Origin: Chloroflexi bacterium UBA4736
GTDB taxonomy: Bacteria; Chloroflexota; Dormibacteria; Dormibacterales; Dormibacteraceae
NCBI GenBank assembly: GCA_002404015.1
Contig: DHIW01000104.1
Coordinates: forward strand, 128,542 to 192,541
DNA: 64,000 nt
Direction: 5' to 3'
The stretch's first letter is position 1, and each line of letters starts with the position of its first letter. The notes below the pieces were generated by a model. The model worked only from the letters and a program-made list of their open reading frames with translations. It did no database searches and had not been told where the DNA came from. The position numbers and the translations under genes were made by a program. Positions 6,854-38,737 of this stretch are shown here, piece after piece.

Positions 6854-8115
6854 CCGGCCAGGCGGTGGCCGGCGCCGGCAGCCGCGGCAGCCAGGCTCAG
6901 GCGGCCATCCGGTTCGATCTCCAGCACTCCGGGCACCGCCCCCGGGACATCGAGCGGGGCGGCCGCCTCGGCTCGGGCCCGCCACCAGCGGGCGACCTCG
7001 CGCGGAAGCGCGTGCCACTGCTCGTCCGATCCCTCGCGCACCTGCCTCAGGAACTGCTCGTACATCGGCCAGAGCGGCCCCTCGCGGAGGTAGTCGGGGT
7101 GGGAGTTGAGGAGTGCCATGCCGCCCACCGACCTGATGAACGCCAGCTTCTCCAGCCACAGCTTGGGTGTCCTCTCGCCCAGGACCGCCGCCAGCGTGTG
7201 GTCCTGCGGGAGGGTGTACGGCAGCTCCCAGAAGCGGCCGATGCGGAACGGCCAGACCGTCATGACGCCTCCGGGGATCGGTTCGTAGGGATCGCTGTCG
7301 AAGAAGGAGAGGTCGTACTCCATCTCCAGGTCCTGCATCCAGCCCGGGTGGCGGTGGGTCAGCGGCGAGCGGAACCCGACGGCACCCAGCTCCCGCAGGT
7401 GGCGGTTGATCCTGGCCGCACGGCGCAGGAACCGGCGGCGGCTCGAGAACAGGCGCCCGTCATGACGGCAGCCGTGGACGCCGATCTCAAAGCCGCGGCC
7501 GCGCAGATCGGCGATCAAGCCCTGGTCGAGGGGATAGCGCTCGGTCACGAAGTTGAACGAGGAGCGGAATCCCAGGCCCTCCTCCAGGTCGGCCACCCGG
7601 GCCGCGAACGCCTGACCTTTGGCGGTCTCGATGTCGTGCGTCAGAACGAATGCGAACTGGCGGCCCTCCGGCCACAGGCGCACGTACGGGAGCCGCTCCA
7701 GGCCGCGCGCCTTGGCGAGGTGCCCGACGGTCGCGGCGAGGAAGGCAGCCCACCGCGGCTCCTCCGGCCAGCCCAGCTCGAAGCGCTGTTCGGCAACCCC
7801 TCGGTGAAGGCTCCGCAGCCGGGTCGTGAGCGACCTCGGCAGCAGGGGTTTCAGGCGGTAGTAGGCACGACGGGGGAGGCCGAGCCGCCAGTGGTCGGGG
7901 CCGAACTGGCCCTCGCCGAGCGTGTTGAAGAGCAGCGCGGCGGCATCATCACCGTCCCGGCGAGCCGCGGCCGGCAGCTCGCCGGCGGCCTTCGCGATCG
8001 CCGCCGACCACTCCGGGTCGGTCGGCGCGGGGTCCACTGTCAGGCGCCAGAAGGCCTGCGGAGTGTTGCTGGCGGTGAGCTCGGGGCCCGGCCTGTCGGT
8101 CGCGACCTCAGGCAC
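6850..8115 (-). CDS. Polysaccharide deacetylase-like protein
   Basis: This 421-residue protein has an NodB/CE4-like core. LTHDIETAKG (about residue 155) contains an Asp/Glu pair at the metal site, and EIGVHGCRHDGRL (about residue 210) gives the His-x(3)-His metal ligands. FRSPLTHRHPGW and ALLNSHPDYL follow. The N-terminal ~140 residues have no motif I recognise. No signal peptide is seen, so it should act in the cytoplasm, unlike secreted chitin or peptidoglycan deacetylases. Similar proteins occur in O-antigen and EPS clusters. It starts within the 3' end of the dehydrogenase gene (8-bp overlap), so the two are one operon. Its substrate is unknown; an amino sugar from this pathway is an inference. 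Confidence 0.75.
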   Translation of the reverse strand: MPEVATDRPGPELTASNTPQAFWRLTVDPAPTDPEWSAAIAKAAGELPAAARRDGDDAAALLFNTLGEGQFGPDHWRLGLPRRAYYRLKPLLPRSLTTRLRSLHRGVAEQRFELGWPEEPRWAAFLAATVGHLAKARGLERLPYVRLWPEGRQFAFVLTHDIETAKGQAFAARVADLEEGLGFRSSFNFVTERYPLDQGLIADLRGRGFEIGVHGCRHDGRLFSSRRRFLRRAARINRHLRELGAVGFRSPLTHRHPGWMQDLEMEYDLSFFDSDPYEPIPGGVMTVWPFRIGRFWELPYTLPQDHTLAAVLGERTPKLWLEKLAFIRSVGGMALLNSHPDYLREGPLWPMYEQFLRQVREGSDEQWHALPREVARWWRARAEAAAPLDVPGAVPGVLEIEPDGRLSLAAAAAGAGHRLAG

Positions 8116-9283
8116 TCGCCACGAGGCCCAGCCCGGGCTCCGGCTGGCTGGTGAGGACGCGGTCGAGGCGGAGTCGCAGCCGCTCCACGCCGACCCGCTC
8201 GGGGATCACGACCGCCTCCTCGCGCCCCCCGTTGTGCAGCGACCTGTCCGCCGCCTCCAGTATGGCCACAACAACGAGGCCCTGGTGGCCGTCGGTCACC
8301 GGGGGTCGGCCGGTTCGGACTGAGCTCAGGAAGTCGGCGCACTCCAGGCGGAGCGGCTCCTGCCACTCGATGTAGGGGATCGTGATCGCGCCGTAGCGAT
8401 AGGAGAGCTGGAACTCGCCGAAATTGTCCGTCAGCGGCGTCGTCACGCCCTTGTCGAACACGCGGATCTTCTCGCCAAGGGAGACGTCGTTGTAGACGAC
8501 CATCTTGGCGTCGCCGACCACCGTGATCCGGCGCACCTTGGCCGGGTCCAGCCAGCTCACGTGCATCTGGGCGAGCACTCCGTTCGGGAACGTGAGCGTG
8601 AGGTAGGCGACGTCGTGCACGCCCGGCTGCACGCAGCTGCTGCCCCTCGCGCTGACCGAGACCGGAGCCTCGCCGAGGATGTCGACGAGGATCGAGATGT
8701 CGTGCGGCGCCAGGTCCCAGAGCACGTTGACGAGCGGGTGGAACTGGCCCAGGTTGAGGCGCGCGCCGTCCACATAGTGGACGCGCCCCAGCTCGCCGCT
8801 GCGCACCATCCGGCGCAGCTCGGCCACCGCCGGGTTGTAGAGGAAGGTGTGGCCGACCATCAGCGTCAGGTCGCGTTCGGCCGCCAGGTTCAGCAGGTCC
8901 TGGGCCTCCTCGACGCTGGCCGCCAGGGGCTTCTCGACGAGCACATGCTTGCCGGCGAGGAGCGCCTCGCGGGCGACCGCGTGGTGGGTGTGGATGGGCG
9001 TCGCGACGACGACCGCCTCCACGTCGCTGGCGAGCAATTCCTGGTGGTCCGGTAGGGCGAGGACGCGGTCGTAGCGGGAGCGGACGTAGTCGAGTCGCGA
9101 CGGCCGGCGATCGGCCACCGCGACGAGCTGAGCCTCCGGAAGCTCGGAGAAGTTGCGAATCAGCTGCGGGCCCCAGTAGCCGCAGCCGATGACACCGACC
9201 CGGACAGGCGTTTCGAGCCCGGGGCGAGGGGTGCGCCGGTCGGCCACTCTCCGCTTGGGAACGAGACCTCTGCGGATCGCCAT
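8108..9283 (-). CDS. Gfo/Idh/MocA family oxidoreductase (WlbA/WbpB-like)
   Basis: The NAD-binding Rossmann motif is VGVIGCGYWGPQLIRNF, followed by the family signature LLAGKHVLVEKPLAAS with its EKP triad, then HTFLYNPAV and DLAPHDISILVDIL. Size and motifs match UDP-N-acetyl-D-glucosaminuronate 3-dehydrogenase (WlbA/WbpB), which would feed the aminotransferase and acetyltransferase encoded nearby. I prefer ATG 9283, giving ~391 residues, because a TACGCT -10-like hexamer precedes it by 9 nt. The frame stays open to an ATG at 9397, but those extra 38 residues do not resemble the family N-terminus. The downstream deacetylase gene overlaps its end by 8 bp. Confidence 0.87.
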   Translation of the reverse strand: MAIRRGLVPKRRVADRRTPRPGLETPVRVGVIGCGYWGPQLIRNFSELPEAQLVAVADRRPSRLDYVRSRYDRVLALPDHQELLASDVEAVVVATPIHTHHAVAREALLAGKHVLVEKPLAASVEEAQDLLNLAAERDLTLMVGHTFLYNPAVAELRRMVRSGELGRVHYVDGARLNLGQFHPLVNVLWDLAPHDISILVDILGEAPVSVSARGSSCVQPGVHDVAYLTLTFPNGVLAQMHVSWLDPAKVRRITVVGDAKMVVYNDVSLGEKIRVFDKGVTTPLTDNFGEFQLSYRYGAITIPYIEWQEPLRLECADFLSSVRTGRPPVTDGHQGLVVVAILEAADRSLHNGGREEAVVIPERVGVERLRLRLDRVLTSQPEPGLGLVASA

Positions 9284-33745: not shown

Positions 33746-34351
33746 TTACATAAGTGCGTCAGCGGGTGGGGTTGCGCGCTTGATCTCGAGCAGGTAGGGG
33801 CGGCCGATCGCGTCAATCACCTCGTCGAAGGTCGCCAGGGCCGCCTCGCCTTCGGGTGCGGGCCGGATGCGGACGTAGGCCGCGGCCGCGGCCGCCGGGA
33901 TCACGAACGTCGGGGTCCCAAACGCGCCGTAACGCTCGACCGCCTCCGTGTGGTCGCGGCCGAGGGCCTCCAGGGTGGTGGCTTTCAGGTCAGCCTTGAA
34001 GCGTTCTACGTCAAGGCCGGCCTGGCCGGCCACCTCGCGGAGCACGGCAGGGGCGTCGATGTCCGACTCGTCAACGTGCCGCGCCGCCAGCAGCGCGTAG
34101 TGGAAGCGCAGGAACGCCTCGCCGCCCTGGCAGCGCGCCGCCTGGGCCGCCCGGAAGGCCTCGTTGCCGGCCACCTTCTCGCGGGTCTTCCAGACCTTCC
34201 ACCGCGGCCGCCGGCTGTTCACCTGGGTCAGGGAGAAATAGCGCCAGCCCACCGAGAAGTCGCGCTTCCCCGACTCTTGAACTCTCTGCAGCAACACGGC
34301 TGCCTGGTAGACGTACGGTCAGCGGTAGTCGTAAAAGACCTCGAGATCCAT
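33746..34351 (-). CDS. DsbA-like thiol oxidoreductase with in-frame TGA: candidate selenoprotein
   Basis: From ATG 34351 the frame encodes MDLEVFYDYR, a TGA at 34319-34321 (codon 11), then PYVYQAAVLLQRVQ and ~180 further open codons. Family members (DsbA/FrnE-type thioredoxin fold) have Cys-Pro at this point after the first strand (pattern DYxCPxxY), so TGA stands exactly at the active-site Cys. Later motifs fit the family: WRYFSLTQVN, FRAAQAARCQGGEAFLRFHY and the cis-Pro loop YGAFGTPTFVI. Downstream of the TGA a 5-bp hairpin (GCAGC-CGTGTT-GCTGC) has its loop 20 nt after the stop and G in loop position 2, as in bacterial SECIS elements. Alternatives are a nonsense mutation, or a shorter protein from TTG 34297. 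Confidence 0.6.
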
Positions 34352-34970
34352 GTCCACAAGTACCATCCGAAAGGCCCGCCTGATTCCGACCCGCGCTCCC
34401 GAGACGCTGGCCTGGATCCGTCTTGACCTGCTGACGCGGCTAGTGCCCTTCGCGTTCGTGGTCACCCTCGTCTACCGCCTCTGGCGGCCGGCCTGGCTCG
34501 GCTTCTCACCTGGCAACCTGGGCGCGCAGCTCTGGTTCGGCCTCCTGGGGGGCGCCCTGCTGTTCCTGGCGTCCGGCATCGTCCAGCTGCTTCTGACGAG
34601 GCGCCGCCAGACCCTGCGGGTGCCGGCTGACAGGCCTGACCTGCTGCTGCAGACCGGGTTCTACTGGCTGAACGGACCGGTCGAGGAGGCGCTCTTCCGC
34701 GGATTGTTGCAGGGCGGGCTGACGGTGTTGGCAGGGCCCTGGCTGGGCCTGCCGGTGGCCACCGCCGTTTACGTCCTCTACCACCGGCTCGGGCGCTGGG
34801 CCTGGCTCGACGTTTCCGCGACCGCGCTGCTGGGGGTGCCCCTGGCACTGGCCTTCTGGCAGCTGCCGGGGCCGCCCTCGCTGCTCGGTGTGGGCATTGC
34901 GCACGCGTGCGCCACCTGCGGTTTCCTGGGCCCGGGTCCCTGGCTGCTGCACCGCTTGCGGCTGGTGTAG
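34350..34970 (+). CDS. CPBP family intramembrane protease
   Basis: The 206-residue membrane protein has about five helices and the CAAX/CPBP motif 1 NGPVEEALFRGLLQG (Glu-Glu plus Arg), followed by YVLYHRLG and a His in GVGIAHACAT that may complete the metal site. The family cleaves prenylated proteins or small peptides within the membrane. Some motifs are weaker than usual, so activity is uncertain. ATG 34350 shares the sequence CATG with the divergent DsbA-like start, which means the two 5' ends must overlap. The MFS gene follows 2 bp after the stop. Confidence 0.75.
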   Translation: MSTSTIRKARLIPTRAPETLAWIRLDLLTRLVPFAFVVTLVYRLWRPAWLGFSPGNLGAQLWFGLLGGALLFLASGIVQLLLTRRRQTLRVPADRPDLLLQTGFYWLNGPVEEALFRGLLQGGLTVLAGPWLGLPVATAVYVLYHRLGRWAWLDVSATALLGVPLALAFWQLPGPPSLLGVGIAHACATCGFLGPGPWLLHRLRLV

Positions 34971-36264: not shown

Positions 36265-36355
36265 CGCTTGGCCTCCTGTGGCGGAGGCCCCGTTCAATCA
36301 CTTTGATCCCTCCCTCTTTCGTCCCCGCAGACGTGGCTGTTCAGGTCGCGAAGCC

Positions 36356-38737
36356 ATGAGCACGCCAAACCCAGGCGACATCCTGCCCCTCTGGAACCCG
36401 GAGATCCCGGGCGAGGAGATCCAGGCCGGCCGCCTTGGCATCCGCATCCGGCCCGAGAGCCCCGCGGCAGCCAAGCTCGCCTTCATCCCCAACGGCTCCG
36501 AGTGGCTGCGCCAGGTACTGGAAGAGCACAAGGAGATGGATGGCACGTACACCATCACCAAGCCCGACAAGCCGTTGGAGTTCGTCGGCAGCGTCGATTC
36601 CACGCTGATCACGGGTCGCTTGGGCCGGACCCCCAAGGGCCTGGCCCTCGAGGTCACGGACATGCAGCAGCTGGAGAGCGAGTTCGTGGTCGAGAAGGCG
36701 CGGCTACATGTGTCCTACAAGGAGCTGCAGCTGGTCGAGGACTGGGACGGCGACCTCGAGGGCTTCACGGCCATCGCACTCCGCGAGACGGCCAAGCAGC
36801 AGCCCATCCTCGACTCCACCATGCGCTTCATCGAGCACCTGCGGGATTTCCGGGAGTCGCTCGCGGAGGCCGCGATCCGGCGCTACGAGGCCACCGAGCA
36901 GTGGATCGAATGCCCCAAGTGCGAGGAGATCAGCCCGACTTCGAGCGGCATCCACTGCCCGAATTGCGGCGAGGACATGCGGGGCGGCGAATACGTTCGC
37001 GCGGCCCTGCTCCTGGAGGGCGACACCGACGGCCGCATCTACCGCGGCATCGACTCGCTGACCGTCCGCTCAGCCGGCTTCCCGGAGTACCGGGGGATGT
37101 CGCTCGACCGGGTCCAGGGCTCGACGCTCTGGGTCTCCTTCCGGCGCTACGACCCGCTGCCCGACGAGGGTGTCGTGTTGCCAACCGCCAGCGTCGAGAT
37201 GTTCGAGGCCCAGCGCTCGGTCATCAGGCAGCTGCAGATCGGCTCGCCGCGCACCGGCGCCCTCGCGGCCGAGCTGGCGGACCCCGGCTGGCTCGGCTCG
37301 CCGCCCCGGGTGCCGCTCGAGGGCAAGAAGGCCCACCACCTGCCCGATCCCAACGAGGAGCAGGCCGAGGCGGTCGCCCGCGTCATGGGGATGCGCCCGG
37401 GCCAGCTCTACCTCATCCAGGGGCCGCCCGGGACCGGCAAGACGACGGCCATCGTGGAGTCGATCCGGCGCATCCTGGGCCGCCACTCCGACTCCTCGAT
37501 CCTGCTGTCGTCCCACTCCAATGACGCGGTCGACACCGGCCAGGAGCGGCTGCTCGGATTCAGCCACGTTCGCCAGGCCCGGATCGCCGAGCCGGGCAAG
37601 GTACCCCGCCGCCTCCGCCACACCCTGGTGGAGGGTGACGACCTGGAGCCTTACAACCTGGTCGCCGGAACCTGCAACCGGCTGGCGATCGACTCCCGGC
37701 TGCGCTTCCGAGTTTTCGACTGGCTGATCCTCGACGAGGCCAACAAGGTGCGCGCCAACGAGGCGCTGGCGCTGATGCCGCTCGCCAAGCGCTGGGTGAT
37801 GATCGGCGACCTGAAGCAGCTTCCCCCCGTCATGGAGGAGGCGGCGATGAGCTTCAAGATCACCTCCGAGCTGGACGAGATGGTCCGCGACGACTCCTAC
37901 TACGGCTGGGTGTGGGACAAGGTGCCCAACACCTCCCGGATCATGCTGCCCCGCCAGTACAGGATGCGCGAGCCGATCGGCCGGGTGGTCTCCGACCTCT
38001 TCTACGACGGCAAGCTGATCCACGAGGCGCCCCACCCCCGGATGCCCCTGCCCTGGCCGTTCGACCGCGAGCTGGTCTGGGTGGACACCGGCGCCCAGGA
38101 CGAATACCGCGACGCCCAGAAGTCGGTCGCCAACGAGTTCGAGGTCGCGCTCTGCAAGGACATCACTTCGATCATCCGTAAGCGCGTCCGGAAGTCGAAG
38201 CTGGCCGTCATCGCCATGTACAACTCGCAGGTCAACCGGCTGGTCTCGGCACTCAAGGGAATCGTGCCGCCCGACGACGTGGAGTCGGTGGACGCCTTCG
38301 AGGGACGCGAGTCGGACGCCGTGATCCTCTCCCTCGTGCGCTCCAACGACCGGGCCGCCATCGGCTTCCTCAACGACCCCAACCGGGTCAACGTGGCGAT
38401 CTCGCGGGCCAAGAAGCTGCTCGTGATCGTCGGTGACTCCAAGACCGTGATCGGCGGCGCCCCCGAGCTGTTCGGCCCCCTGTTCGAGCACGCCAAGGAG
38501 GAGGGCCTGGTGGCGGGGGTGGGCGCGGTCGTGACCGCCTGCCAGCGGGTGGGCATCCGCTCTCACGTGCAGCGGCTGTCGCGGCCTCGGCGCGGGGACC
38601 GCCGCCGCCACAACCGCAGGCGCCGGCGCAGTCGCGACCAGGACGCAGTGGCCACGCAGCCCGAGATCAACGGCGAGCACCCCACGACGCCGCAGGTACC
38701 GCCCGCCCCCGAACCGACGACCGAAGCGGCGAGCTAG
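36356..38737 (+). CDS. SF1B (Upf1/Dna2-like) ATPase/helicase with zinc ribbon
   Basis: The ~793-residue protein has a long N-terminal region with a zinc-ribbon pair (ECPKCEE near residue 185 and CPNCGED), then the helicase core. Walker A is IQGPPGTGKTTAIVES (about residue 355), motif Ia SSHSNDAVD, motif II WLILDEANKV, motif III VMIGDLKQLPPVM, motif IV MLPRQYRMREPIG, motif V VDAFEGRESDAVILSL and motif VI RVNVAISRAKKLLVIVG. The tail is very basic (RRHNRRRRRSRD), suiting nucleic-acid binding. It should act on RNA or DNA; the substrate is unknown. The start is ATG 36356; an in-frame codon at 36278 is less likely. The site-2 protease frame follows directly after the stop. Confidence 0.85.
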   Translation: MSTPNPGDILPLWNPEIPGEEIQAGRLGIRIRPESPAAAKLAFIPNGSEWLRQVLEEHKEMDGTYTITKPDKPLEFVGSVDSTLITGRLGRTPKGLALEVTDMQQLESEFVVEKARLHVSYKELQLVEDWDGDLEGFTAIALRETAKQQPILDSTMRFIEHLRDFRESLAEAAIRRYEATEQWIECPKCEEISPTSSGIHCPNCGEDMRGGEYVRAALLLEGDTDGRIYRGIDSLTVRSAGFPEYRGMSLDRVQGSTLWVSFRRYDPLPDEGVVLPTASVEMFEAQRSVIRQLQIGSPRTGALAAELADPGWLGSPPRVPLEGKKAHHLPDPNEEQAEAVARVMGMRPGQLYLIQGPPGTGKTTAIVESIRRILGRHSDSSILLSSHSNDAVDTGQERLLGFSHVRQARIAEPGKVPRRLRHTLVEGDDLEPYNLVAGTCNRLAIDSRLRFRVFDWLILDEANKVRANEALALMPLAKRWVMIGDLKQLPPVMEEAAMSFKITSELDEMVRDDSYYGWVWDKVPNTSRIMLPRQYRMREPIGRVVSDLFYDGKLIHEAPHPRMPLPWPFDRELVWVDTGAQDEYRDAQKSVANEFEVALCKDITSIIRKRVRKSKLAVIAMYNSQVNRLVSALKGIVPPDDVESVDAFEGRESDAVILSLVRSNDRAAIGFLNDPNRVNVAISRAKKLLVIVGDSKTVIGGAPELFGPLFEHAKEEGLVAGVGAVVTACQRVGIRSHVQRLSRPRRGDRRRHNRRRRRSRDQDAVATQPEINGEHPTTPQVPPAPEPTTEAAS

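Follow-up and report, generated by a model that had tools for sequence, protein, structure and literature searches.

DsbA-like selenoproteins of bacteria have been catalogued in several active-site forms. Form 1, with selenocysteine (Sec, U) in a UxxC motif, is represented by nine sequences in PMC1088965 and recurs in a 2026 review (PMC13188914). The same review lists a form 2 with a DxxUP motif (MDP6049977.1, citing Peng et al. 2016), and the Global Ocean Sampling selenoproteome (PMC2398784) lists "DsbA 3", a pfam01323 group of five marine sequences with a UxxV motif; the UxxV and DxxUP forms stand as predictions. PMC1794560 gives four DsbA-like selenoproteins overall and three selenoproteins for Chloroflexi. 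Our literature search found no publication on DsbA-like selenoproteins of Chloroflexota, and none offering a phylum-wide picture of a mono-selenol DsbA family. Here we analyze a DsbA-like gene with an in-frame TGA at its active site (33746..34351, minus strand) in a 64,000-nucleotide stretch of Chloroflexi bacterium UBA4736, hereafter the window. We propose, at a probability of roughly 0.93, that it encodes a Sec-containing, probably cytosolic, single-cysteine-type DsbA/thioredoxin-fold oxidoreductase.

The active-site motif of the predicted protein is DYRUPYV, that is, U-P-Y-V, a single selenol without a resolving cysteine, and the protein is therefore not a classical dithiol DsbA (CXXC or UXXC). 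It resembles DsbA 3 in its PF01323 domain and in the valine three residues after Sec, which is found in 42 of 43 TGA proteins (window included), although this likeness to five marine sequences is one of motif row alone. DYRUP also fits the DxxUP motif of MDP6049977.1, likewise a PF01323 protein, in a comparison by motif alone; the table of PMC13188914 additionally labels that protein crotonase/enoyl-CoA hydratase. With form 1 the window protein shares the DsbA fold and Sec as the first motif residue, but valine stands where form 1 has its resolving cysteine. An earlier reading, made from the sequence alone, was right that a DsbA cysteine is replaced, but overlooked that the UxxV motif, unlike that of UxxC DsbA selenoproteins, has no resolving cysteine. 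A UxxV DsbA selenoprotein has thus been predicted before; the novelty here lies in its spread through Chloroflexota, in a hairpin that covaries and in repeated switching to and from cysteine.

Among the matches listed, the closest solved structure is DR2335 of Deinococcus radiodurans (PDB 7dk9, 7dka), whose active site is cysteine in a CPYA motif, in contrast to Sec in UPYV. The mycothiol-dependent nitroreductase Rv2466c (PF22234) shares the fold and the C-terminal region, and the read-through protein scores 51.5 bits against PF22234 (Pfam, cut-off 27); Rv2466c, however, has a two-cysteine motif (CPWC in the aligned sequence), whereas the window protein lacks the second cysteine. NF041057, the Rcas_1661 family thioredoxin-like (seleno)lipoprotein, is likewise a DsbA-like (seleno)protein family, and its name points to a Chloroflexota genome. 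Membership in it was rejected at 19.2 bits against a curated cut-off of 190.

A TGA codon in the active-site column

The frame opens with ATG at 34351 on the minus strand and runs to a TAA, the stop being counted within 33746-34351; it encodes 201 residues if the TGA is read through. It begins MDLEVFYDYR, meets the TGA at residue 11 (34319..34321, minus strand), resumes with PYVYQAAVLL and continues uninterrupted for 190 codons (residues 12-201). The sequence-only reading had described this start, the ten codons to YDYR and the long open frame correctly, and its assignment of DsbA-type motifs agrees with a score of 63.5 bits against DSBA PF01323 (Pfam, cut-off 25.6). The AlphaFold2 model of the 201-residue protein has a mean predicted local distance difference test score of 95.2 and a predicted template modeling score of 0.89. 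Profile match and predicted structure both place the protein in the DsbA fold. A Gly-Thr-Pro at residues 145-147 (33911..33919, minus strand) is invariant in 54 aligned relatives and precedes strand 148-151 of the model; from its position alone we take it to be the thioredoxin-fold cis-Pro motif.

A mechanical gene call instead yields a truncated 183-amino-acid open reading frame (ORF) from a GTG start (33746..34297, minus strand), and database protein P0002 (99% identical) has this form too. A protein database search gave 747 matches, of which the best 120 were considered. Among these protein records, P0002, P0003 (72%), P0004 (70%) and P0101 (57%) all start with MLLQRV just past the Sec column, the point at which a gene caller would restart after a TGA. 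The rest of the 120 have Cys-Pro in the column, except P0033, for which the sequence shown ends before it; the close Cys-form relatives among them are P0005, P0006 and P0008, at 58-60% identity.

We searched the read-through protein against 400 genomes of the phylum and against three Chloroflexota classes (110, 158 and 294 genomes; the sets overlap), and found matches in 36, 43, 62 and 28 genomes, respectively. The codon in the Sec column could be tallied for 94 distinct Chloroflexota loci: TGA in 42, TGC in 42, TGT in 10 and no other codon, with no further stop before query residue 196. The tally covers the loci returned per search and leaves out, for example, 6 of the 36 phylum matches and 13 of the 43 in the class of genome G380. 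Also left out are the distant DsbA proteins with cysteine at L003 and L004, L035, which is the same gene as L001, and a second DsbA copy in L002. A scan of genome contigs yielded two Chloroflexi genomes (L001 and L002), both with TGA in the column. G380 is the sole internal-TGA match among those listed in its class, which is also the class that the gene order of the window points to. The TGA thus stands at the active-site cysteine, as had been proposed from the sequence, in a column that is Cys or TGA throughout the 94 loci.

This column bears on the idea that the gene is a pseudogene whose TGA arose by sequencing error or by a recent nonsense mutation. The truncated 183-residue form in the database and the cysteine in relatives at 58-60% identity would suit that explanation, but the same TGA recurs in 42 other genomes across the tree, never as TAA or TAG, and three more truncated database proteins (57-72% identical) share the start just past the Sec column. 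The frame moreover stays open in the window and in the TGA relatives, which the sequence-only reading had taken as speaking against an old pseudogene, and the hairpin described below covaries. On the relatives' TGA column we reject a pseudogene as extremely improbable. Translation might alternatively begin at the GTG at 34297, as in the mechanical call, leaving the upstream part untranslated and giving a DsbA without an active site. Such a protein would lose the first strand together with the active site, and TGA and Cys forms alike conserve the protein sequence of the 10 upstream codons; on that conservation, a downstream start is rejected and has just as slight a chance.

A candidate SECIS hairpin

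A putative bacterial Sec insertion sequence (SECIS) hairpin, GCAGC-CGTGTT-GCTGC, lies at 34288..34303 (minus strand), with a 5-bp stem, a 6-nt loop whose second and third letters are G and T, and 20 nt between the TGA and the loop. Section 5 of PMC13188914 gives the bacterial rules as a spacing of 16-37, a loop of 3-9, a stem of 4-16 bp, a G, and an energy limit of -7.5 kcal/mol. The window hairpin falls within the spacing, loop, stem and G rules stated there, in keeping with what had been claimed for it, but its energy is borderline (-6.4 kcal/mol for the best rule-obeying perfect hairpin). The 48 nt downstream of the TGA fold at -8.7 kcal/mol.

Comparison between TGA and Cys genes is more informative. 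The five core pairs are formed in 191 of 215 cells across the 43 TGA genes (window included) versus 128 of 260 across 52 Cys genes, and loop position 2 is G, and position 3 is T, in 39 of 43 TGA genes each. When each gene is compared with 200 synonymous recodings of itself, the best rule-obeying hairpin averages -8.2 kcal/mol in TGA genes versus -3.8 in their recodings, and -3.2 versus -3.3 in Cys genes; hairpins with p < 0.05 number 17 of 43 and 2 of 52, respectively. Among 41 distinct sequences, two-sided changes occupy 30 cells, versus 11.6 in shuffles, none of the 500 reaching the observed value. Covariation scores 0.255, versus 0.142 in shuffles and at most 0.106 when partners are slid.

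Several results weigh on the other side. The window hairpin taken alone is at chance level (p 0.27, 200 synonymous recodings), and the loop G is missing from 4 of the 43 TGA sequences. Two of five covariation measures are not clearly above shuffles; the observed value was reached in 80 of 500 shuffles for pairs with two-sided change and in 44 of 500 for further pair types. With partners slid by -3, pairing is still frequent in TGA genes, at 159 of 215 cells versus 191 of 215, and RNAalifold, unaided, gave no hairpin on the 41-sequence alignment (A1). Considered together, the alignments indicate that TGA genes preserve the hairpin through paired changes, whereas Cys genes do not preserve it. 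By these sequence comparisons, the TGA column together with its relatives is beyond chance, whereas the window hairpin alone is not.

Sec machinery and exchange with cysteine

tRNA-Sec is above cut-off in 36 of the 42 TGA genomes, and SelA is above cut-off in all of the remaining six (G569, G526, G559, G524, G534 and G553). In 11 TGA genomes tested for all three components, SelA and tRNA-Sec were each found in 11, the latter with anticodon TCA in every case, and SelB in nine, the other two falling below cut-off. In G380, selA adjoins selB. The association of tRNA-Sec with the TGA form nevertheless has little power as a test, given how widespread Sec use is: tRNA-Sec occurs in 209 of 294 genomes in the class of G238 (23 of 24 TGA genomes) and in 104 of 158 in the class of G374, where the TGA genomes show no enrichment (10 of 15). 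It was also found in 20 of 26 genomes without a known TGA form (of 37 scanned), and many Cys-form genomes carry Sec machinery. No sel gene appears among the RNA genes of the 64-kb window, whose proteins were only partly scanned. The machinery is thus present in TGA genomes, as Sec insertion necessarily demands, but does not discriminate. The search for sel genes that the sequence-only reading called for comes out favorably for relatives with the TGA, which have tRNA-Sec and/or SelA, the comparison having covered relatives only. As a separate observation, tRNA-Sec in these two classes is commoner than the three Chloroflexi selenoproteins in PMC1794560 would lead one to expect.

Cysteine can be inserted through the Sec machinery in other organisms, which lends some color to a reading of the UGA as Cys or Trp without selenium, through a code change or leaky decoding. 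However, TGA terminates 31 of the 58 ORFs called heuristically in the window, so that there is no general reassignment, and on these stops a code change is rejected. Relatives carry Cys, not Trp, in the column, and the hairpin and tRNA-Sec favor Sec; we give this explanation only marginally more credence than a pseudogene. Comparative sequence evidence instead makes it highly probable that UGA codon 11 is read as Sec, as first suggested from the sequence and now supported by the Cys/TGA column, the covariation of the hairpin and the presence of sel genes in relatives. SelB and tRNA-Sec would carry out the decoding, with the hairpin 20 nt downstream as the directing signal, and the window genome would itself carry sel genes.

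In a quick maximum-likelihood tree built from 95 proteins after masking of the trait column, and with the root position not fixed, at least 10 Sec/Cys changes are required, compared with about 31 for shuffled labels; well-supported branches force three of them. Immediately outside a Cys clade of 29 rows (SH-aLRT support 97) lie the branches of the window and G380. This clade reads most simply as one in which Sec was lost, the direction being unproven with the root unfixed.

Predicted function and gene neighborhood

Our best inference is a cytosolic monoselenol reductase that uses a low-molecular-weight thiol. Sec11, at the N terminus of helix 1, would act as a lone selenol that attacks a disulfide, a mixed disulfide or a peroxide. 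Because there is no cysteine at +3 and usually no other in the protein, an outside low-molecular-weight thiol would then resolve it; in Cys-form relatives a thiol would perform the same job. We put a mono-selenol thiol-reductase function at about even odds. The wider kin of the protein includes Rv2466c and kappa-class glutathione S-transferase (GST), and it is a substantial, if less favored, prospect that Sec is inserted but the protein acts as a kappa-class GST, HCCA isomerase or peroxidase.

More tentatively, and with the odds somewhat against it, the loci may belong to a Chloroflexota-wide family of cytosolic mono-selenol DsbA-like proteins, spanning at least three classes, with an outside thiol in place of the resolving cysteine, at least ten Sec/Cys switches, tandem Sec copies (L002) and a ubiquitin-like in-frame form beside an E1-like gene (L001, L145). 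If it exists, such a family would link selenium with a pathway of the sulfur-carrier type and provide a natural series for Sec/Cys exchange. Sec and Cys forms on one tree, in conserved neighborhoods, offer matched pairs for measuring what selenium contributes to a one-residue active site. Mechanical ORF calling truncates these genes immediately past the active site, so the redox enzyme appears in databases, if at all, in shortened form; in our judgment the trace-element biology of uncultured Chloroflexota is almost unstudied.

L002 has tandem DsbA copies (7213-7833 and 8001-8597), with TGA in the active-site column of both. In L001 (7021-8609) and L145, a ubiquitin-like stretch, MoaD/ThiS-type by eye and ending FIRGG, lies in frame directly before the Sec-DsbA, representing either a fusion or an internal start; a ThiF/E1-like gene lies just upstream of this frame in L001.

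Database proteins match a helicase near the window gene (36353-38737) at 83-91% identity; among the best 120 of these matches, 13 name an organism, which is Candidatus Dormibacteraeota for 10, Actinobacteria for 2 and Chloroflexi for 1. G380 (TGA) and, with Cys forms, G446 and G031 share the gene order helicase, helicase, DsbA, Rce1-like protease, MFS. The helicase pair is also present in G451 (L161), the closest genome as judged by one helicase (64%), and the read-through protein search gave no DsbA match there. The divergent neighbor, an Rce1-like (CPBP) protease (34350..34970, plus strand), is part of the neighborhood kept in relatives; its ATG overlaps that of the DsbA gene at 34349-34352, likewise in G380 (L160), leaving no space for a classical promoter between the two genes.
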